Positions 8,995-35,063 of a stretch of 35,063 nucleotides of DNA are shown here, one piece after another (the stretch's first letter is position 1; each line of letters opens with the position of its first letter). Position numbers and translations under genes: made by a program. This stretch comes from Nanobdellota archaeon. GTDB taxonomy: Archaea; Nanobdellota; Nanobdellia; Pacearchaeales; GW2011-AR1. A model generated the notes under the pieces. It did not search any database and was not told the DNA's origin. It was given only the letters and a program-made list of their open reading frames with translations. Where the stretch lies: the NCBI GenBank assembly GCA_030647965.1, contig JAUSIT010000011.1, positions 1 through 35,063 on the forward strand. Direction: 5' to 3'.

Positions 8995-9824
8995 TGTTGT
9001 AAAATATCTCCTTGTTCTGGATAATAACCCGGATAAAGTGCATAGCTTCTTATTGCAAATCTAAATTTAATTTTTGATTCTCTATCTTGGATAGTATAAA
9101 TTTTTGTTCCATCTTCCTGCATAATTGATGTAATTGAAAAATCATTATATAATAACATTAATGTATTCACATCAGAATCTCCATATACAGATTCAGATTG
9201 AACAATAGTATTTGCAATCATAAGCATATTATAAATTGGTGAATCAAATTTTGTTTCAAATTTTGTAAATTTTGAACTTCCATCTTTTGTCAAAACAACA
9301 GGAGCATTTAAATCAATCACAACTTGATTTAAATCTAAAGAAACTTTTAATTCTTTTGTTCCTTCATTTATTGTATATCCTTTTTGTCTTAATTCATTTA
9401 AAGAATTTTGATAGCAACTATTTATTTCATTAGTTATTCTTGCTTTAAGCTCTTCTTCAAAATGCTGTTTTAATAAAGGTTCTTGATTTACACAAGGAAC
9501 AAAATACTGATTTGTATAACATATATATGGAATTTTTTCATCATTTAATAAATAATAAAATTCAGGATTATTATATCCTGCTTGATTTCCTAAAATTGGA
9601 ATTTGTTTTTGAACAGCATTTTTCATGCATGTTTCTATTCCTAAACTTCCTGTTGTCGAAGGTATAGAAATATTTGGTTTTACAAGAAAAAAGTATGCAA
9701 GTATGGCACCAACAATTAAAATTGCAACAATTATAAATATAGTTACTTGTGCGTGCTTTGAGTTTAAATTAAAATTGATATTCATATTTGAAGTCAAGGC
9801 ACGAATTCCTCTTTTACTTCGCAT
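8991..9824 (-). CDS. prepilin-like secreted/membrane protein
   Basis: N-terminal NSKHAQVTIFIIVAILIVGAILAYFFLV; start may be the internal MNINFN. Confidence 0.6.
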   Translation of the reverse strand: MRSKRGIRALTSNMNINFNLNSKHAQVTIFIIVAILIVGAILAYFFLVKPNISIPSTTGSLGIETCMKNAVQKQIPILGNQAGYNNPEFYYLLNDEKIPYICYTNQYFVPCVNQEPLLKQHFEEELKARITNEINSCYQNSLNELRQKGYTINEGTKELKVSLDLNQVVIDLNAPVVLTKDGSSKFTKFETKFDSPIYNMLMIANTIVQSESVYGDSDVNTLMLLYNDFSITSIMQEDGTKIYTIQDRESKIKFRFAIRSYALYPGYYPEQGDILQQ

Positions 9825-9882
9825 ATTTTATTTAATAATTCAGTATTTATAAATTATACTTTAATATTATATATAATTAGAA

Positions 9883-10605
9883 TTAATCGTTCTCAACTCT
9901 TGGTGCAAGAACAAAACCCATTCCCATTTCATCACCTGCAAAATCTAATCTTAAAGGATAGTCGCTTGAAAAATTAATAGTAACTCTTTTTGCAATCTTG
10001 CTTGCTTTTATAAATTTCATTAAATATTCTAAAGAATATTTTGACCTTCCGATTCCATTAAATACTGCTTCATCTCCTGAAAATTCAGCTCTTGCAGAAT
10101 TCAAGCTTCCAGAGCCTTCAATAATAAAAAATTCTTTTCCAGAAATAAAAGTGCATGAATCTGCTACTGTTGCGCAATCTTCAATTGCCTGTGAAAAAAT
10201 AGTTGAATCCATTTCAACTTTGCATGCAAAATTTAAGTTTGGTTCATTTTTTTCTTCTGATTCAATTTCAATTAAAGACATATTAAAAATTCTTTTTACT
10301 TTGTCAAAAATACTTATTTTTAATTTATTATCTTCTTGTTCAAAAACAACACTTGCGCCAGATGAAGCTCTTTTCATTATCATTTTTAAATCAGAAAGAT
10401 TAACTCCCCAAACTTCATTTCCTGTTTGATATTGTGAAAAACTCTCTTTTGGAAGCTTGAATAATATCATTGCAACATTTGCAGGATCTACTGCAACAAT
10501 AGACATTCCATCTTCACCTAGTTTTATTCTTACTTCATTTACAATCTCTGAAATTATATTTATTGCATCAGATAAAATTTTAGGTTTGTCAATCTTTACT
10601 ATCAT
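9883..10605 (-). CDS. pcn: DNA polymerase sliding clamp (PCNA)
   Basis: MIVKIDKPKILSDAINIISEIVNEVRIKLGEDGMSIVAVDPANVAMILFKLP...LRLDFAG..MGMGFVLAPRVEND is archaeal PCNA. Track start at 10704 is too long; ATG at 10605 matches family start. Confidence 0.93.
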   Translation of the reverse strand: MIVKIDKPKILSDAINIISEIVNEVRIKLGEDGMSIVAVDPANVAMILFKLPKESFSQYQTGNEVWGVNLSDLKMIMKRASSGASVVFEQEDNKLKISIFDKVKRIFNMSLIEIESEEKNEPNLNFACKVEMDSTIFSQAIEDCATVADSCTFISGKEFFIIEGSGSLNSARAEFSGDEAVFNGIGRSKYSLEYLMKFIKASKIAKRVTINFSSDYPLRLDFAGDEMGMGFVLAPRVEND

Positions 10606-10689
10606 AGGTATAAATCCTCTTTTCAATATATAAACATTGTTGCATTTAACTACACTATAATTTATTAATTCAAAACTATTACTCAAAAT

Positions 10690-12165
10690 ATGAGGCAAGT
10701 GCAAGCAATATCAATATTTTATTATTCAAGAAAAGATGTGCAAGAAGCTATCTTTGAGTTCTGCAAAAATAGAGAAACAGTACCAAGATATGTAGAAAGT
10801 TTTGGAAAAAGGCCTGATTTGCTAGATTTTCCTTCAGATATACTAAACTCTGCAAAAAATGGAGCAACTTCTTTTCATTGTTCAGAAGAATTATGGGAAG
10901 ACCCTTTGAAAATTTCAAAAGAAATGAACCAAAGCGAATTAAATAACTTAAAAATTGGCTGGGATTTTTTAATAGATATTGATTCAAAATATCTAGATTA
11001 CAGCAAAATTGCAGCAGATTTAATAATAAAAGCACTAAAATATCACGGGGTAAACAGCGTCGGTGTGAAATTTAGTGGCTCAAAAGGCTTTCATCTAATT
11101 GTTCCATGGAAAGCATTTCCAAAAGAAATTAATGAAGAAAAGACAAAAAACAAATTTCCAGAATGGCCAAGATTAATTGCCGGTTATTTGCAGGAAATAA
11201 TTCATGATGATTTAATAAAACAAATTTTACAATCTGCAAATGTAAAAGAGCTTGAAAATTCAGGAAAAGAATTTTTAGAAGCAATTTGTGTTAAATGCGA
11301 CTCCAATGCAATAACTCAAATGATTTCAAAATATAAGTGCAAAAATTGCAAAGCAGAAATTCAAAGCATGAAATCTGTTAAAAAAACACTAAGATGCCCT
11401 GGTTGCAATGGAGATATGGAAAAAACAGGTGAAGAAAAACTTTTTGTTTGCAATACTTGCCAGACAAATTCTTTAAAATTTCCAGAACAATTTATTGAAA
11501 GGCAGACTGCCAAAGAATTAATTGACTCAGTAGATATTGTTTTAGTTGCTCCAAGACATTTGTTTAGAGTGCCTTATTCTTTGCATGAAAAAACAGCTCT
11601 TGCTTCAATTGTAATTGAAAAAGAAGAAATAAAGAATTTTCAGCCACAAATGGCAGACCCTTTAAAATTAAAAATAAAAAACTTTATTCCTAATTCAGAA
11701 GAAGGAGAAGCAAGAGAGTTATTAATACAAGCAATAGATTGGGCAAAAAGAAAAAATAAAATAGAGAAAAAATTTACAGGAAATTCAATTGATATTAAAA
11801 ATCTGACTTTTGATGAATCTATGTTTCCAGATTGTATTAAAAAAATTTTAGCAGGAATAAAGCAAGATGGAAGGAAAAGAGCATTATTTATCTTACTTTC
11901 ATTTTTTTCAAGTTTAAATTTTCCTCAGGAATATATTGAAGAAAAACTTGAAGAGTGGAACAAAAAAAATTACAAGAAATTAGAAGAAGGATACATAAGA
12001 AGCCAGATTTCATGGTTTTCCAAAAATAAAATAATGCCTCCAAATTGCGATAAGTCTTATTACAAAGAATTAGGAATTCAGTGCTCATGCCAAAATGTAA
12101 AAAATCCAATAAATTATACAATAAAAAAAGCAATGAGCAAAAAAGGAAATTTCAAAAATGCTTGA
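10690..12165 (+). CDS. priS: DNA primase: PriS catalytic domain with zinc-ribbon insertion and C-terminal PriL-like domain (fusion)
   Basis: PriS motifs DFLIDIDSK, GVKFSGSKGFHLIVPW, HLFRVPYSLHEKTALAS; CVKC/CKNC/CPGC/CNTC knuckles; C-terminal FPDCIKKIL...PPNCD...GIQCSC like PriL C-terminal domain. Confidence 0.85.
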   Translation: MRQVQAISIFYYSRKDVQEAIFEFCKNRETVPRYVESFGKRPDLLDFPSDILNSAKNGATSFHCSEELWEDPLKISKEMNQSELNNLKIGWDFLIDIDSKYLDYSKIAADLIIKALKYHGVNSVGVKFSGSKGFHLIVPWKAFPKEINEEKTKNKFPEWPRLIAGYLQEIIHDDLIKQILQSANVKELENSGKEFLEAICVKCDSNAITQMISKYKCKNCKAEIQSMKSVKKTLRCPGCNGDMEKTGEEKLFVCNTCQTNSLKFPEQFIERQTAKELIDSVDIVLVAPRHLFRVPYSLHEKTALASIVIEKEEIKNFQPQMADPLKLKIKNFIPNSEEGEARELLIQAIDWAKRKNKIEKKFTGNSIDIKNLTFDESMFPDCIKKILAGIKQDGRKRALFILLSFFSSLNFPQEYIEEKLEEWNKKNYKKLEEGYIRSQISWFSKNKIMPPNCDKSYYKELGIQCSCQNVKNPINYTIKKAMSKKGNFKNA

Positions 12166-26231: not shown

Positions 26232-26504
26232 TTATATCCCAAAAGTTTTTTCAAACTCTTTCATCTGGGCATATTTAACTGCAAAATCTCTTCCTTTTTT
26301 TGTTATTTGGAGCAAAGCCTTTGCTTCAGAAAGATTATCTTCAATTAGCTTATTTTTTATTAATTCATTTAAGTATAACTTCATCTGATTATGCGAGAGA
26401 TTTGCTTTATACATAAGATGGGTCTTTTTAATCTTCCCGCCTTTTTCTTGTATAATTCTCAAAATATCAGATATTATGTCTGACCTGTTTCTTTTTCTTT
26501 CCAT
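26232..26504 (-). CDS. winged-helix regulator
   Basis: [50 protein letters not shown]...ITKKGRDF. Confidence 0.75.
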
Positions 26505-27174
26505 ATTCTAAAATCTTTACTATTAAAATTAGCAAAATCACATAACTTATTAATTGTATTGTTTGTGCGATTGCATATAAAATAGCAATATGGGAAAGAA
26601 TAAATATGATTTGGCTTAATGATAACATTGCAAATGCAATCAATAAAGTTTTAGTGTTGCCTGATTTATTTTTTTGATATAAATCTTGATAGTTACCAAT
26701 TATTAATATTAATAGCAAAAGAGCAGTAATATGGAAAAGATAAAAAAAGAAATTACCAAATAAAGCAGAAATAATCAAGAAATAAAATACAAGGAAAAAA
26801 TCACTTGTAATTCCTTTTTTTGTAGGAATTTTATAAATAATATATAATCCCATTAAAGTAAATAATTTATGAAGAAAAAATCCAATATAATAAAAAATAT
26901 CGACTGATTTTACAACATTATATGTTACAACCATGTGACCAATGTTTTGTGTAAAGCTAGTATCATAATATAACACTAATTTTGTAAGAATTGTAAAAAT
27001 TTCTGCAAGAGCAATTGCAAAAAATCCTAAACCAATATATAATGAATTTTTATTTTTGCTTAATCTGTAATTTTTTAAGCATAAAATAAAAAATAAAAAT
27101 AAAATCATAAAACTAAATATCTCAATTAATACATCTATTCCAAGAAACCAATCAGGTGTTAATGCTATCTTCAT
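26467..27174 (-). CDS. seven-TM-like membrane protein, unknown, coupled to the wHTH gene
   Basis: 235 aa with about seven hydrophobic segments; 38-nt overlap with the wHTH ORF. Confidence 0.65.
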
Positions 27175-27459: not shown

Positions 27460-28050
27460 TTAATTTTCAATTTGCCGGTCAACTTCATTATTAATAATGG
27501 TAATGGTTTGGCTGGCAAAATATGTTTTTTTACCTATAGAAATTTTTTCAATATTTTTAATAAATTTTTCTTTATCTTTTGGAAATCCCTGATGATCCCC
27601 AATTATAAAAACTTCATTGCCCTTGAATTTTAATTTTCTAATATCTTCTCCTTTTTTGCTTAAAATAAAAACATTTTTTCCTTCCTTGTCTAATTCTTTA
27701 ATAAGTACTTCAAAACCTTTTTTTTCAATAAAGCAGCCAGGAAATATTTTCCTAAGCCCATCTTTTGAATCTTTTGGCAGTTTATACAACATTCTTTTTA
27801 TCAAGCCGCCTATATCTTTTTTTGAAATTGGCATTTCTTTATCATATTCAAATATTAAATGTGCAGGGGGATTTGGCTGGCCTTCAAAAATTAAATGCAA
27901 TTTTACATCATCTCTTATTGCATGTGAAAGAAAAAATACAGATATAACTACATTGCATGCAATATCCATTCTTCCTGCTTTCATTAAATTAGATAAATCA
28001 AAATTTCCAGTCGTTATGGCTTCTTTTGAATAATAAATAAATTCTCTCAT
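27460..28050 (-). CDS. trmY: tRNA (pseudouridine(54)-N1)-methyltransferase
   Basis: MREFIYYSKEAITTGNFDLSNLMKAGRMDIACNVVISVFFLSHAIRDDVKLHLIFEGQPNPPAHLIFE...FIIGDHQGFPKDKE: TrmY SPOUT pattern. Confidence 0.92.
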   Translation of the reverse strand: MREFIYYSKEAITTGNFDLSNLMKAGRMDIACNVVISVFFLSHAIRDDVKLHLIFEGQPNPPAHLIFEYDKEMPISKKDIGGLIKRMLYKLPKDSKDGLRKIFPGCFIEKKGFEVLIKELDKEGKNVFILSKKGEDIRKLKFKGNEVFIIGDHQGFPKDKEKFIKNIEKISIGKKTYFASQTITIINNEVDRQIEN

Positions 28051-28091: not shown

Positions 28092-29456
28092 TTAGTCTGC
28101 ACCTTCTGGCAAATCTTCATCAGAAACATTATATCCTCTTTGTGCTTGTTCAAGTTCTTTTTTAACATTATTGACTTCTTGCTTAATTTGTTCATATTCT
28201 CCATCTATTGCTTCAGCAGAATTAGGTAATTCTTCATATTCTGCATAAACTACATTTGAAGGCGCTGGGGGATTTTTTAATTGAAAAGTAGATGTTTTTG
28301 CAATTCCTGCAGCAATACCTTCTATTTTATATGGAACTTCTTGTTGGCTTTTTTCATATATATCTCTATTTCGGCCCCACATTTTTTCTTTTTCTACAGG
28401 ATATAATTTATCACTAATTGTTTCCATTAAATTATAAAAAACTTCAGAGCTTGAACTTTTTTGATAAGGATAATAATCATGGTATGATGAATAACTACTA
28501 ACTATTTCATTAAAATAATCTTCTGAAATTGGATCTAACAAATCATTTAAAATTTGCCATCTTGTTTTTTTATTCTTTTTCTCTATTTTTGCAGAAGGAA
28601 TTTTGTTGTCTGTTGCTTCAGTTCCTGCAGTTTCTCCACCAAACTCTTTAGATTCTGGATTTTTGTAAGAATAATAACTATATTGGTTTTTTATTTTATT
28701 TAACATAATACACACAATCAAATCATTATCAATTATTCCAACTTCATGTTGGTCATTTCCTGCTTTTATATCTGAAATAAATCCCACTTTTGCACGAATT
28801 ATTTTATCCCTGAAAATTCCTTTGTTTAAATAAGAGGGTTTTGTATATGTAAAAAATGTTTGAGCCATTATTCTTACATTGTTAGAAAGTTCTGAAAAAT
28901 TTTCATCATAAATATGTCTCATGATTTTTACCATATCTGCAGGACATGTTAAATTGCTTCCATCTGGATTAAATTCATTTGTAATTTTTGGCACATTTGG
29001 GCAAAGAAGATGAGAAAACATTGTTTTTTCAAGGCCTAAATTCTTTATTGAATTATTCAGTGTTTCTATCCCGATTTTATCAACTAAAATATTTGTAGCT
29101 TCATTGTCTGATTCAACAAGCATGTAAAAAATTAAATCATCTACACTTATCTCCTGATTATTTGGAAGCATAGAAGTAAAGTCATATGTTTCAAGCATAT
29201 ATTTATGATTAGTTTTCAAAAATGTTGTAAGGGATAATTTTTTTCTATCAATTTCTTGCAATGTAGCAATCATTACAGGAACTTTAATAATTGATGCAGA
29301 CCATCCAGGATCATATGCATTTACATTTGCTTCAAGCCCGTCACTTATTCTGTATAAACTTATTTTTGTTTCTGCATCAAAATCTTTTTTTATATTTTCA
29401 ATTGTAGATCTTAATTTTTCTTCAAGTGTTTTTTCTTGTGGTTTGTAAAAGCTCAT
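28092..29456 (-). CDS. class A beta-lactamase-fold serine hydrolase, no signal peptide, acidic/coiled-coil C-terminal extension
   Basis: SxxK in WSASIIKVPV, SDN in VESDNEATNILVD, KxG in AKVGFISDIKAGNDQHEVGII; about 190 aa extension ending EQAQRGYNVSDEDLPEGAD. Confidence 0.8.
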   Translation of the reverse strand: MSFYKPQEKTLEEKLRSTIENIKKDFDAETKISLYRISDGLEANVNAYDPGWSASIIKVPVMIATLQEIDRKKLSLTTFLKTNHKYMLETYDFTSMLPNNQEISVDDLIFYMLVESDNEATNILVDKIGIETLNNSIKNLGLEKTMFSHLLCPNVPKITNEFNPDGSNLTCPADMVKIMRHIYDENFSELSNNVRIMAQTFFTYTKPSYLNKGIFRDKIIRAKVGFISDIKAGNDQHEVGIIDNDLIVCIMLNKIKNQYSYYSYKNPESKEFGGETAGTEATDNKIPSAKIEKKNKKTRWQILNDLLDPISEDYFNEIVSSYSSYHDYYPYQKSSSSEVFYNLMETISDKLYPVEKEKMWGRNRDIYEKSQQEVPYKIEGIAAGIAKTSTFQLKNPPAPSNVVYAEYEELPNSAEAIDGEYEQIKQEVNNVKKELEQAQRGYNVSDEDLPEGAD

Positions 29457-29458
29457 TT

Positions 29459-30748
29459 TTATAGTTTATCTTTGATTAATTTTTTTAATTTAGCAGGATT
29501 TAGCAATAATCTGTAATTTTCTATTGATTTTCTGTTATTATAATCAAATTTTGGAGCAGAATTGCATTTGATTTCATAGGATAACTCTTTGCCTTTATAA
29601 ACTTTAATTTTATCTTTAATAAAAGCAATGTTTTCAGAAGTTATAATCTCGTCTGTTTTATCTCCATCAATATCTAAAAACATGAAGTCCTCAAAAACAC
29701 CTTTAGGGGTTATAACTGTTTCGAAATTTTTATTTGCAATTTTTAAATTATATAAATAATCTGTTGCACATAAAGTTCCTGAATTTCTTTGATTGCTCCA
29801 AATGGGCTTAATACTTCCTAGCTTACTAAGATTATTCCTGTTCGTTCCCATTTGGAGGCTTAAAGAATCCCCAACAGCTTGCCGTGATTGGGATTCTTTA
29901 TTTCCAGACCTATAAACAATTCGTGTTTTTTCATGCCAGCTAAATTTTTCAAATTTTTTTGTCAGTATTTCTAAAATATCTCCAGCATTTTCAGTTTTAG
30001 CATTAATATCCCCTATTAAAAATTTATTTCCGTTATTTACAACTAATCCTAAATTAGTTCCATTTATATTATATAAAAAATGGTTTCTTGATGAATTAAA
30101 ATTATATTTTTCTCCATAACTAAGACTTATATTGCCTGTTTCATCTTTTTCAGAAGATAATCTAAATAATTTTTTATCTTTGATAAAATACACTTCGTCC
30201 CCTAGCCTAATTATTTTTTCGATCCCATTAATATAACTTGTAATTTTATTTCCTTCTTTCTTCGCAATCATCCCTTGTGAATAATCCACAAAAATATTTT
30301 CATTTACAAATTCTGCATTAACATTTTCACTAATAACATTTAATTTTTTCTCTAATCTGGATTGATTTTTGGGATTATCTAAATCAGATAAATCTTTTGG
30401 GTCATAATGTCCATCAAGAGAACTATAATCTGTGTCTAAAGCAATTCTTTTTAATTTTTGTAGTGCTTCAAAACTTTCAAATTTATCAACATATCCTGGA
30501 TGTTCTTTTAAAAAATATAACATTGCTTTTTCAGCTTGAACTGTATCTTGTTTCATTAAATATTCAAATATATGTTTTTGTTCTTTTTTTTCATAACTTT
30601 TCATCATTCTTGGTTCAAGGAAATTAAAAGTTCCACATATTATAAGAGCATATAAGCCTAATTTAAGTCCAGATATGCCTGAATTAATAATTGTTCTTTT
30701 CTTTTCTATTTTTCTTTTAACTGAAAGTCTGTCAATTATCGATTCCAT
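29459..30748 (-). CDS. single-TM protein with C-terminal FG-GAP/VCBS-like Ca-binding motif, unknown
   Basis: TM SGLKLGLYALIICGTFNFLEP near the N-terminus; FLDIDGDKTDEIITSE (DxDxDxxDE). Confidence 0.6.
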   Translation of the reverse strand: MESIIDRLSVKRKIEKKRTIINSGISGLKLGLYALIICGTFNFLEPRMMKSYEKKEQKHIFEYLMKQDTVQAEKAMLYFLKEHPGYVDKFESFEALQKLKRIALDTDYSSLDGHYDPKDLSDLDNPKNQSRLEKKLNVISENVNAEFVNENIFVDYSQGMIAKKEGNKITSYINGIEKIIRLGDEVYFIKDKKLFRLSSEKDETGNISLSYGEKYNFNSSRNHFLYNINGTNLGLVVNNGNKFLIGDINAKTENAGDILEILTKKFEKFSWHEKTRIVYRSGNKESQSRQAVGDSLSLQMGTNRNNLSKLGSIKPIWSNQRNSGTLCATDYLYNLKIANKNFETVITPKGVFEDFMFLDIDGDKTDEIITSENIAFIKDKIKVYKGKELSYEIKCNSAPKFDYNNRKSIENYRLLLNPAKLKKLIKDKL

Positions 30749-32321
30749 TTGTATTGCCTCCAGATTTATTTAAAATTAAAAATTCATCTTTCTTTTCAGG
30801 CAATAATCTAAAATTTTTATAAAATTGTTCACTACTAAAATAGTTATTTTCATTTCCAGGATATAACCTATTGTCTTTCAAAACATTTTCAATTATTCTT
30901 TCAGATTTTGCTTCAATTTGATGATTATGTTTTACATCTGAATAGAATGACGCCCCCCAACCGGAAATTGTAAGAGCAACAGTCAAAGGCCAAACTAATT
31001 TTGAAAAAGAGAATTTTTCTTTTAGTTCATCCCCCAATAAATTCCAAAAATTAATTTTTTTATCAATATTTAAAGAATTATCTTTAGATAAATCATATTC
31101 TAGGTTTCCTTTAGTTTTTAGAGCATCAAATTCATCTAAGCTAATTTCTAAGGGTCTAATCATATCAAGATTTGCAGGCTTTAATCTTCTTTTTCCATTT
31201 CTTAATGTTTCTGCAAAATCATAAATTTCTCTTATTCCTTGTATTTCTCGAAGACCAGCAGTAAAACAATCATCATTATTTTTTTTATTAGCACAATTAT
31301 TACATTGAAGAGGATAACACTCATATCTTCTTTTGCCAGCATATATCATTTTCTCCCAATCCATAGCAGAAATATCCCTCTTTAATTGTTTTACAATCTC
31401 ACCCAATAATCTCCCTTCTAAGGGAACTTTTCTTTCTCTTGTTTGTTCTAAAGATGTATGAAGTTCTTTACTAGGTAAATAAGCTCCCTCCTTTTTTTTA
31501 TTTAAATCTAATAAATAAGAATAATACTTGAACTTGTCAAATTCCAACTGCTTTCTTCCTTCTATAAAATCCTCTAAATTTTGAACTTCTTTTTTAGTTC
31601 CTAATGCAGAAACAAATGGCTCAATCCACTTGTAAAACATTTCTAAATATTGCTGTGCCTGAATTTCTTTATCCATTCCCACTAATTTAATAGGGCTATA
31701 TCTACCATTTGGAAGAAATAATTTTTTAGAAATGCCTATATGAAAATCATCTTCATTTTGAATCTGAGGAAAATTAAACGAATTTTTAGAATTGTATGAA
31801 TAAGCGCCCAATATTAATCCGAGTGCATTAATCTGCTCTTCATTATTTATAGAATCTCCTAATAATTCAATCCTGGGTGATTTATAACGCATATTTAATC
31901 CAACAGATAACGGGGTCAATGCAAATAAATGAAAAGGAATTGAAATTACATTATAAAAAGAATTTTTTTCCTTAGAAAAAATATTTTCTTGGGTTTGCAT
32001 AAATCTATCTAAACTTAAATTCCAGTGCATTGAATATCCAGTATGCTTTAATTCTGGAATTGATTTTACAACCCTATCTCTTCCAATCATCAACGAATCT
32101 GTCAATCTTGTTGCAAATCCTTTATTAATCAAAATCGGGGGAGTTAAAATCTCAAGTTCCTGGCCGTCTATATAAAATCCATTTCCGGTTGTTGTTCGTA
32201 TAGAACTTGCACTTTTTTTATAATCAGAATCATTCATAAATTTTCCAAAATTAATACTTCTTACTTGATCTACTTCAAAGCTTTTCAATTCATTTTCAAT
32301 TCCTATATACTTATTTTCCAT
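30732..32321 (-). CDS. Pup-ligase/Dop-like amidoligase paralog 1 (putative), with C-terminal TM and zinc-knuckle region
   Basis: YIGIENEL, SSIRTTTGNGFYIDGQELEILTPP, GYSMHWNLS, RIELLGDSINN; CYPLQCNNCANKKNNDDC; TM LVWPLTVALTISGWGASFY. Confidence 0.6.
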   Translation of the reverse strand: MENKYIGIENELKSFEVDQVRSINFGKFMNDSDYKKSASSIRTTTGNGFYIDGQELEILTPPILINKGFATRLTDSLMIGRDRVVKSIPELKHTGYSMHWNLSLDRFMQTQENIFSKEKNSFYNVISIPFHLFALTPLSVGLNMRYKSPRIELLGDSINNEEQINALGLILGAYSYNSKNSFNFPQIQNEDDFHIGISKKLFLPNGRYSPIKLVGMDKEIQAQQYLEMFYKWIEPFVSALGTKKEVQNLEDFIEGRKQLEFDKFKYYSYLLDLNKKKEGAYLPSKELHTSLEQTRERKVPLEGRLLGEIVKQLKRDISAMDWEKMIYAGKRRYECYPLQCNNCANKKNNDDCFTAGLREIQGIREIYDFAETLRNGKRRLKPANLDMIRPLEISLDEFDALKTKGNLEYDLSKDNSLNIDKKINFWNLLGDELKEKFSFSKLVWPLTVALTISGWGASFYSDVKHNHQIEAKSERIIENVLKDNRLYPGNENNYFSSEQFYKNFRLLPEKKDEFLILNKSGGNTNGIDN

Positions 32322-32322
32322 T

Positions 32323-33711
32323 TTAGTTTTTCCCCTTCTTCGTTATTTTCTTTTTATTATAACATATTTTATCACATTCTTTGCAAACTATATCTTCTGC
32401 TTTTCTATTCTCATTATTATAATAACTGCCAAATCTTCCTAATTGTATTTGACATTCATAATCATTATCAATACCTCTAAAAAAATTTCTTATTTCTTCT
32501 TCTGGCAAATCTAAAGAATTATCTTCTGAAAAAGTTCTGTTTTGAGATAAAAATTCTTGAAAATTAGGTAATGCAGGCTTAATTACATCTAAATAAACCC
32601 TTTTTAATCCAGGCATTTTTTTATTTAAATCTTCTGCAAATCTATAAACCCCATCTATTTGTCTTATAGTTATTATTTGATGATATCTATCACATCCTGT
32701 ACAAAATTCTCCGACCCCCAGTTCGAGTGCATCCCAATTTATAGAGTTTATTTTATCTTTCATCTGTTTTACAATCCCCCCCAATAATCTTCCTTCTAAT
32801 GGGACTTTTCTCTCTCTTGTTTCAGACAATACTGTATTTTTAAAAAGCTCATTTGTCCAATAAATTACATTTTCTTTAAAACCCATTTCGTTTAAACAAT
32901 CATAATACTTGAATTTATCAAATTCAAGAGGTTTTCTTGCTTCTATAAAATCCTCTAAATTTTGAACTTCTTTTTTAGTTCCTAATGCAGAAACAAATGG
33001 CTCAATCCACTTGTAAAACATTTCTAAATATTGCTGTGCCTGAATAGATTCTTGTGTTGAAGTCTTAAAATTATCACTTCTTTTAGATAAAAATATTCTT
33101 GCTTTTAGTTGTTCAAAATTTAAATATTCTTGTGCAATTGATTTAACAAATATAGAATCTTGTGAGTTAGAATAATTATTTTTCTTATCACTAGCATAAT
33201 TATACGCTCCAAGCATTAATCCAAGTGCATTAATCTGCTCTTCATTATTTATTGAATCTCCTAATAATTCAAATCTATTTGGTTTAACACGCATTCCTGA
33301 TCCTATGGATATGGGGGTTAAACCAAATAAATGAAAAGGAACAACAACCCCCTTATAAAAACCTGTTGAAGTTATATTATCAAATGAAGATTGAGTTAAA
33401 TTCCAGTGCATTGAATATCCAGTATGCTTTAATTCTGGAATTGATTTTACAACCCTATTTCTTCCAATCATCAACGACTCTGTCAATCTTGTTGCAAATC
33501 CTTTATTAATCAAAATTGGCGGAGTTAAAATCTCAATTTCATTACCATCAACATAAAATCCATTTCCGGTTGTTGTTCGTATTGAACTTCTTGATTTTTT
33601 ATAATCAGAATCATTTACAAATCTATAAAAATAATCCCCAAAATCAATTTTTTCATTTTCCTCATTAAAACTAGTCAATTCATTTTCAATTCCTATGTAT
33701 TTATCGGCCAT
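32323..33711 (-). CDS. Pup-ligase/Dop-like amidoligase paralog 2 (putative)
   Basis: YIGIENEL, SSIRTTTGNGFYVDGNEIEILTPP, GYSMHWNLT, GSGMRVKPNRFELLGDSINN; C-terminal CKECDKIC. Confidence 0.6.
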   Translation of the reverse strand: MADKYIGIENELTSFNEENEKIDFGDYFYRFVNDSDYKKSRSSIRTTTGNGFYVDGNEIEILTPPILINKGFATRLTESLMIGRNRVVKSIPELKHTGYSMHWNLTQSSFDNITSTGFYKGVVVPFHLFGLTPISIGSGMRVKPNRFELLGDSINNEEQINALGLMLGAYNYASDKKNNYSNSQDSIFVKSIAQEYLNFEQLKARIFLSKRSDNFKTSTQESIQAQQYLEMFYKWIEPFVSALGTKKEVQNLEDFIEARKPLEFDKFKYYDCLNEMGFKENVIYWTNELFKNTVLSETRERKVPLEGRLLGGIVKQMKDKINSINWDALELGVGEFCTGCDRYHQIITIRQIDGVYRFAEDLNKKMPGLKRVYLDVIKPALPNFQEFLSQNRTFSEDNSLDLPEEEIRNFFRGIDNDYECQIQLGRFGSYYNNENRKAEDIVCKECDKICYNKKKITKKGKN

Positions 33712-35063
33712 TATTCTTTATCCTCTTCTGCATTCCTAGCATCACAATACCCTGGGTCATATTTATTACAATCCTTGCAAATTTTTTCAAATATATCTTT
33801 AAAATATATGCTCAATGATTCTATTTGAGAATTGCAGGAAACCTGGTTATCATCTTGCATTAATTTTGCAAGATGTTTTTTTATTTCATCCATAGATAAA
33901 TTCAAAGAATTATCGTCTGGAAAAGTTCTGATTTTAACATTTTCTAATTCTTTTTTAATATCAAAATTTTCAGGAGCCACTAAACTTAAATCACTCTCTT
34001 TTAATTTTGGAAATTTTTTATTAAGTTTCTGGGCAAATTCATAAATTTCTGTTATCCCCTTAATTTCATTACTGGTTTTTTCTGCAGAACCCTCACATCG
34101 ATTACATTGCATGCTTTTTTCATTAAAATTAATACAATACTCTGCAGAATGTTTAGTGTTATTAAATTGATTATATCTTAATTCATCCCATTCAATTTCT
34201 GAAATAGTAATATCCTCTCCTGTTCTTTTTATAATCTCTCCTAAAAGCTTTCCTTCTAGCGGGATATTTCTCTTTTTTGATTCTTTTAAAATAATCTCTG
34301 GGAATAATTCACAAGGAATATAAATTCCATTACTCTCCTTTAGTTCAAGATCTTCTAAGCAATTATAATACTTTATTTTATCAAATTCCAACTGCTTTCT
34401 TCCTTCTATAAAATCCTCTAAATTTTGAACTTCTTTTTTAGTTCCTAATGCAGAAACAAACGGCTCAATCCACTTGTAAAACAATTCCATATATTGTTGT
34501 AATTGCATAGGCCCATATTTTGTTTTTATAGTTTTATAACGCCCCTCATTTTTCAAAAGCAAGTCGTTACTGAAATATCGTGCAAAATCAGATTCAATAA
34601 AAAAATTAGTATTTTCTATGGCAGACAAATTTTTAGTTTCATCATTATCTAACAAATTTATTAATTGAGAATAAGAACCTAATATTAATCCAAGAGCATT
34701 AATCTGCTCTTCATTATTTATAGAATCTCCTAATAATTCATATCTTTCAGGTCCTCTTCCCCTTCTATGATTTGACTCTCCTTTTCCACGCATTGCACAT
34801 CCCACAGAAATAGGGGTTAATCCAAATAAATTAAAAGGAATTGCTATTGCATTTTCAAATTGAAATGAATTTATTTTATATTTTGTTGAGCTTAAATTCC
34901 AGTGCATTGAATATCCAGTATGCTTTAATTCTGGAATTGATTTTACAACTCTATCTCTTCCAATCATTAAAGAATCAGTTAATCTTGTTGCAAATCCTTT
35001 ATTAATCAAAATTGGCGGTGTTAAAATCTCAATTTCCGCACCATCAACATAAAACCCATTTCC
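33711..35063 (-). CDS. Pup-ligase/Dop-like amidoligase paralog 3 (putative; 5' end outside window)
   Basis: Reading frame stays open to the window edge: GNGFYVDGAEIEILTPPILINKGFATRL...; the track start (TTG at 35009) is internal to the conserved block. Confidence 0.6.
   Translation of the reverse strand, partial: GNGFYVDGAEIEILTPPILINKGFATRLTDSLMIGRDRVVKSIPELKHTGYSMHWNLSSTKYKINSFQFENAIAIPFNLFGLTPISVGCAMRGKGESNHRRGRGPERYELLGDSINNEEQINALGLILGSYSQLINLLDNDETKNLSAIENTNFFIESDFARYFSNDLLLKNEGRYKTIKTKYGPMQLQQYMELFYKWIEPFVSALGTKKEVQNLEDFIEGRKQLEFDKIKYYNCLEDLELKESNGIYIPCELFPEIILKESKKRNIPLEGKLLGEIIKRTGEDITISEIEWDELRYNQFNNTKHSAEYCINFNEKSMQCNRCEGSAEKTSNEIKGITEIYEFAQKLNKKFPKLKESDLSLVAPENFDIKKELENVKIRTFPDDNSLNLSMDEIKKHLAKLMQDDNQVSCNSQIESLSIYFKDIFEKICKDCNKYDPGYCDARNAEEDKE

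Follow-up and report, generated by a model that had tools for sequence, protein, structure and literature searches.

The 35,063-nucleotide contig C31 of a Nanobdellota archaeon (hereafter the window; the genome comprises 982 kb in 45 contigs and is ~85% complete) carries on its minus strand part of an operon in which tandem copies of a protein family, here called C, are followed by a membrane protein (D) and a serine hydrolase (B). By structure prediction, C has the carboxylate-amine ligase (glutamine-synthetase) fold, within which it probably forms a new clade, nearest to PafA and Dop. The family is co-inherited with B and with a second hydrolase, the amidase A. This cassette matches no known pathway and may represent an undescribed way to make and break amide bonds.

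In the window, the operon consists of five tightly packed open reading frames (ORFs; 35063-33711, 33711-32323, 32321-30732, 30748-29459 and 29456-28092), the first of which has its 5' end open at the contig edge. The junctions are, in order, a 1-nt stop/start overlap at 33711, a 1-nt gap, a 17-nt overlap and a 2-nt gap. The ORF list thereby bears out an earlier inspection of the letters (the sequence-only reading), which had described five coupled minus-strand ORFs running off the edge. The first three ORFs, C3, C4 and C5, are 54-55% identical to one another with long invariant blocks, and contain all of the shared motifs that this reading had quoted.

Fold and motifs of the C family

C does not match any Pfam or NCBIfam family. 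TssN and Cohesin appeared as weak Pfam matches under the curated cut-offs and were disregarded. No member of the C alignment matches the Pup_ligase profile PF03136 at E <= 1, and PF03136 proteins are found neither in the window genome nor in genomes G324, G412 and G413. In hhalign comparisons, neither PafA/Dop nor YbdK matched C significantly, and the known pair PafA-YbdK was equally unmatched, so that the result carries no weight in either direction.

Structure prediction, on the other hand, gave a definite placement. AlphaFold modelled full-length C with a predicted local distance difference test (pLDDT) score of 56 and a predicted template-modelling (pTM) score of 0.62; with the variable C-terminus trimmed off, these values were 73 and 0.80. 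When the trimmed model was submitted to Foldseek, PafA/Dop occupied places 1-11 among the PDB matches (E 1.7e-8 to 7.2e-5), followed by YbdK-type ligases and glutamine synthetases. With the untrimmed model PafA/Dop were the top 10 and the order was unchanged. The glutamine-synthetase fold with PafA/Dop as nearest neighbours, as proposed from the sequence, was thus recovered, and no different fold emerged. A viral structure library yielded weak matches to C, solely viral amidoligases and unnamed proteins. The C-terminal subdomain of the C model (helix 301-316, strands 317-320, 324-329 and 356-361, helix 363-374) has a counterpart in the small C-terminal alpha/beta domain of PafA and Dop, which also resemble C in occurring as tandem paralogs.

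The motifs point in the same direction. As the sequence-only reading had suggested, PafA-type motifs recur in C in the same order, and they agree with the published PafA motif analysis in which GhExE (motif 1) was defined (PMC2588565). Motif 2 reads G-x3-Y-x-D-x(4-6)-E-x2-[TS]-[PA], with the same G/Y/D spacing as in PafA. G46, Y50, D52, E57 and T60 (C5 numbering) are invariant in the 16-member C alignment, and the Asp at this position of PafA/Dop is the proposed catalytic base. Motif 3 is HxN, with a Tyr three residues ahead of the His in most members (YGCHEN in PafA); it deviates in both L024 copies and in L026. Motif 4, R-x-[HE]-x(2-3)-G-D, compares with RLHVIVGD of PafA. The ordered three-motif PafA pattern was present in 11 of the 14 C members with an intact N-terminus, in none of 320,000 shuffled sequences and in none of seven YbdK proteins; as it was composed after inspecting both families, the shuffle control measures rarity and is no blind prediction. 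The PafA fragment used to retrieve PafA/Dop genes, which is also included in the four-sequence PafA alignment, matches PafA of the PDB at 1.5e-103.

Motifs 1 and 2 are ~39-57 residues apart in C, compared with 44 in PafA and 82 in Dop. Judged by this spacing, the Dop-loop, an insertion of ~40 residues specific to Dop, is not present in C, and the length between the motifs appears ligase-like (PafA-type) rather than Dop-like. YbdK/GCS2 ligases have the fold and GhExE in common with C, but their structural match is weaker (E 6e-4 to 1.5e-3, below PafA/Dop), motifs 2-4 as written are absent from YbdK, and there is no Pfam match to link them with C. The differences from PafA/Dop are also considerable: identity in the structural alignment is ~12%, and the partners of C are PF01510 and PF13354 enzymes, not proteasome genes. 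Because neither the PF03136 profile nor an adjacent pup gene could be matched to C, we see no ground for placing it among the Pup ligases, though C may well work like one.

The features of the operon in the window are as follows, all on the minus strand:

33711-35063: C3, PafA/Dop-like paralog, third in the tandem and truncated at its 5' end by the contig edge (ORF and alignment)
32323-33711: C4, PafA/Dop-like paralog, predicted to be soluble (ORF, alignment, transmembrane prediction)
30732-32321: C5, PafA/Dop-like paralog with a C-terminal transmembrane-like segment; residues 1-375 modelled (ORF, AlphaFold)
32289-32303: C5 motif 1, GIENE (GhExE, core strand 1; alignment, motif as in PMC2588565)
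32136-32186: C5 motif 2, G46-x3-Y50-x-D52-x4-E57-x2-T60-P, with candidate catalytic-base Asp52 and candidate metal-site Glu57 (alignment)
32019-32036: C5 motif 3, YSMHWN (HxN, core strand 4), H99 and N101 invariant (alignment)
31854-31874: C5 motif 4, R150-x-E152-x3-D156 (core strand 6), all three invariant (alignment)
30942-30998: C5 C-terminal transmembrane-like segment, residues 442-460 (transmembrane prediction)
29459-30748: D, single N-terminal transmembrane segment, residues 23-41 (transmembrane prediction)
28092-29456: B, PF13354 serine hydrolase with intact SxxK/SDN/KxG (profile match, alignment)
29283-29294: SIIK, the motif of B with the nucleophile (residues 55-58); S55 and K58 do not vary across eight B proteins (alignment)

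Operon continuation and the partner proteins

A search with the paralog alignment revealed two more full C paralogs on contig C18 of the same genome; a third is cut off after its first 33 residues by the end of that contig. This fragment corresponds to residues 1-33 of the family model, and C3 begins at model position 45. In the simplest reading, C18 runs into C31 with ~35 bases missing; we infer this join, and the fragment is probably the N-terminus of C3. The tandem C paralogs have exact tracts of 44-139 nt in common, compared with a synonymous difference of ~0.4-0.5 (L012 11884-15097 and window 30732-35063), which suggests gene conversion or assembly mosaics. Since these tracts reach 139 nt, the assembly probably broke at a repeat, and additional C copies may lie between C18 and C31. 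At the head of the operon stands the PF01510 amidase A on C18, whose stop overlaps the C1 start. The gene order across the presumed join would be A, C1, C2, C3, C4, C5, D, B, with C18 as the first and the window as the second half of the operon. The sequence-only reading is thus extended by a second amide hydrolase and two further paralogs, all off the window. Upstream of A, at L012 8324-9778, lies an ORF that resembles the Rubisco large chain in a by-eye reading.

A belongs to Amidase_2 (PF01510; E 9.5e-9 to 1.4e-17, and 1e-6 in L023). His33 is invariant, and a second His and a CPG motif occur in all full-length copies, which completes the His, His, Cys set of zinc ligands; a tyrosine is also retained. 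We take the roles of these residues to be those of the T7-lysozyme type. B, which had been recognised as a beta-lactamase-fold hydrolase from the letters, matches PF13354 (Beta-lactamase2) at E 4.2e-30 and has a complete active site with SxxK (S55, K58), SDN (116-118) and KxG (K223, G225). Because neither A nor B has a signal peptide or hydrophobic N-terminus in any genome, both are predicted to be cytosolic.

D has one N-terminal transmembrane segment, and its orthologs match FG-GAP/beta-propeller models; window D alone does not. As positive charge is greater on the N side of the segment, the propeller presumably faces outward. A C-terminal transmembrane segment in C occurs only in cassettes with D (5/5), in one C copy per cassette, beside the D gene. 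The membrane protein and the transmembrane segment in one paralog, both noted in the sequence-only reading, are found again, and C and D are likely to sit together on the membrane.

Recurrence and co-inheritance

Eight further DPANN genomes carry the cassette, some of them with one or two of its genes absent, disrupted or cut off. The same genome and five independent metagenome-assembled genomes (MAGs) contain relatives of C4 at 28-65% identity, and more were found in class genomes; those in public records are from Nanoarchaeota, Pacearchaeota and Woesearchaeota MAGs. The gene order is A, C, D, B in L007, A, C, B in L008, A, C, B, C in L010 and A, B, C in L011, while L009 has A and C. L023, L024 and L025 have A, B, C and D, L024 with a second C. 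In L068 A lies at the contig edge and in L067 B lies on a 3-kb contig; both are cut off, so that incompleteness is not demonstrated there.

Among 383 class genomes, C is present in 8, a close B in 7, a close A in 8 and all three in 6. The pairwise co-occurrences A-C, B-C and A-B have chance probabilities of P ~3e-13 to 5e-11, figures that are inflated by shared ancestry, with the genomes concerned spread over several families. Moreover, genomes that are far apart in one of A, B and C tend to be so in the others (correlations of pairwise divergence 0.74-0.81; Mantel p 0.004-0.008). Decay is also evident: A is frame-broken in L008 (~9255-9865) and C in L009 (~9830-10906), where B is absent. The L008 and L009 genomes have flanking genes around the cassette in common. 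A lone divergent C homolog, 20% identical, lies at L069 5693-7078, on a 16.8-kb contig (also that of L026) from which A, B and D are absent; nearby are a kinase-like ORF, an ORF resembling radical-SAM proteins and repeated paralogous ORFs. C relatives are absent from the viral contigs searched, and one query each against phages and plasmids returned none. No description of the cassette was found in the literature searched, a scope outside which the 2009 amidoligase survey (PMC3268129) falls.

Proposed mechanism and competing explanations

We propose that the operon encodes a cytosolic, partly membrane-tethered pathway in which C forms amides for A and B to cut or trim, a reading to which we give an even chance. 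The observations comprise gene order, co-inheritance, the predicted fold, motif conservation, the completeness of the A and B active sites and the absence of signal peptides; from these we infer the activity of C, its catalytic direction, its substrate and an action of A and B on its product. By analogy with PafA, C would bind ATP and metal via GhExE, Glu57 and HxN and phosphorylate a carboxylate, and Asp52 would activate an amine to give an amide or isopeptide bond. The zinc amidase A and the serine acyl-enzyme hydrolase B would cleave or trim the same amides, so that the modification could be reversed or recycled. In each cassette with D, one C copy would be tethered to the membrane beside D, with the propeller-like domain probably outside, and at least part of the reaction would therefore take place at the membrane. 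Substrates would differ among the tandem C copies. More tentatively, we consider a system of reversible amide conjugation that is native to archaea and in parts unrelated to pupylation. At the membrane, PafA-like ligases would modify proteins or envelope components with a small molecule or peptide, which A and B, recruited from cell-wall enzyme families, would take off or edit in the cytosol. This is possible but doubtful.

Several results weigh against the make-and-break pathway. A sequence-profile search of C against the PDB found no match, and C lacks PafA/Dop residues outside the motifs, among them the TRDEPHA stretch. The query TM-scores of the C model to PafA/Dop are 0.48-0.56, and since values of about 0.5 denote the same fold, we read the kinship suggested by the models as a distant one. 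Within 5 kb on either side of the cassettes there is no Pup-like gene, Pup-like C-terminus (Glu or Gln end) or conserved small ORF, so that the small Pup-like gene sought from the sequence-only reading did not turn up. As the lineages of L008 and L009 have decayed, the system appears dispensable. Finally, the known substrate of the A and B families is peptidoglycan, and a wall-derived substrate is therefore equally compatible.

Because A and B belong to peptidoglycan-substrate families and lack signal peptides, as in AmpD-type cytosolic recycling, muropeptide scavenging is the strongest rival, albeit a rather unlikely one. Bacterial peptidoglycan fragments would be taken up, A would remove the stem peptide like AmpD, B the terminal D-Ala, and C would act on gamma-glutamyl peptides, in parallel to AmpD, LdcA and Mpl. 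Like the cassette, cytosolic recycling combines an amidase, a peptidase and an amide ligase, but the ligase fold differs. Mpl is a Mur-type ligase and does not have the glutamine-synthetase fold, which counts against the parallel. In addition, seven of the eight cassette genomes lack a Mur ligase domain and thus a wall to receive the products. SLT transglycosylase domains, which would fit scavenging, occur in six of these genomes and are absent from two. According to the cited literature, cytosolic amidase, carboxypeptidase and peptide ligase form a known recycling trio, and Woesearchaeota and Pacearchaeota have been proposed to attack peptidoglycan.

Protein tagging proper, in which C would conjugate to proteins a small protein or peptide whose gene lies elsewhere in the genome and so feed the proteasome as in pupylation, seems improbable to us. 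It is favoured by PafA/Dop as the nearest fold and by proteasome subunits in all eight cassette genomes. A further precedent comes from Plesiocystis and Rhodopirellula, where PafA-like ligases with transmembrane segments are encoded beside a membrane-protein gene and unlinked from proteasome genes (PMC2588565); these ligases, however, have four transmembrane helices after strand 4 and occur with Pup, whereas here there is one C-terminal segment, no Pup and two hydrolases. In all pupylation lineages described the Pup gene adjoins the PafA gene, whereas no such gene lies within 5 kb of the cassettes here, and cassettes lie apart from proteasome genes where both could be placed, yet both are on C18 in the window genome. 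We assign a similarly low probability to C being a hydrolase like Dop, so that all three enzymes would dismantle amides in catabolism or detoxification. In structure, Dop matches C as well as PafA does, and it employs the same Asp for isopeptide cleavage according to the literature, and the partners A and B are both hydrolases; the PafA-type spacing of motifs 1 and 2 points the other way. An antibacterial effector set, with A and B attacking the walls of bacterial prey or hosts, is highly improbable: bacteria-killing archaeal peptidoglycan hydrolases have been demonstrated, prominently in Nanoarchaeota and many without signal peptide, and A matches phage lysis amidases, but A and B have neither signal peptide nor wall-binding domain, the co-inherited ATP-type ligase fold is left unexplained, and PADLOC returned no match, so that the cassette is no known defence system.

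In the literature surveyed, PafA/Dop occur only with Pup and only in bacteria, and related archaeal ligases without Pup would bear on the origin of this tagging chemistry. Two peptidoglycan-type hydrolases inside cells that make no peptidoglycan likewise raise a testable question about how DPANN archaea use amide-linked peptides.

Directly downstream of the operon and on the same strand, the window encodes a PF04013 RNA methyltransferase (27460-28050, E 5.8e-45), which is outside the cassette at the other loci read. The gene at 26467-27174, for a membrane protein that weakly matches MASE3, overlaps a winged-helix gene of the HTH_45 type (26232-26504) on the same strand.
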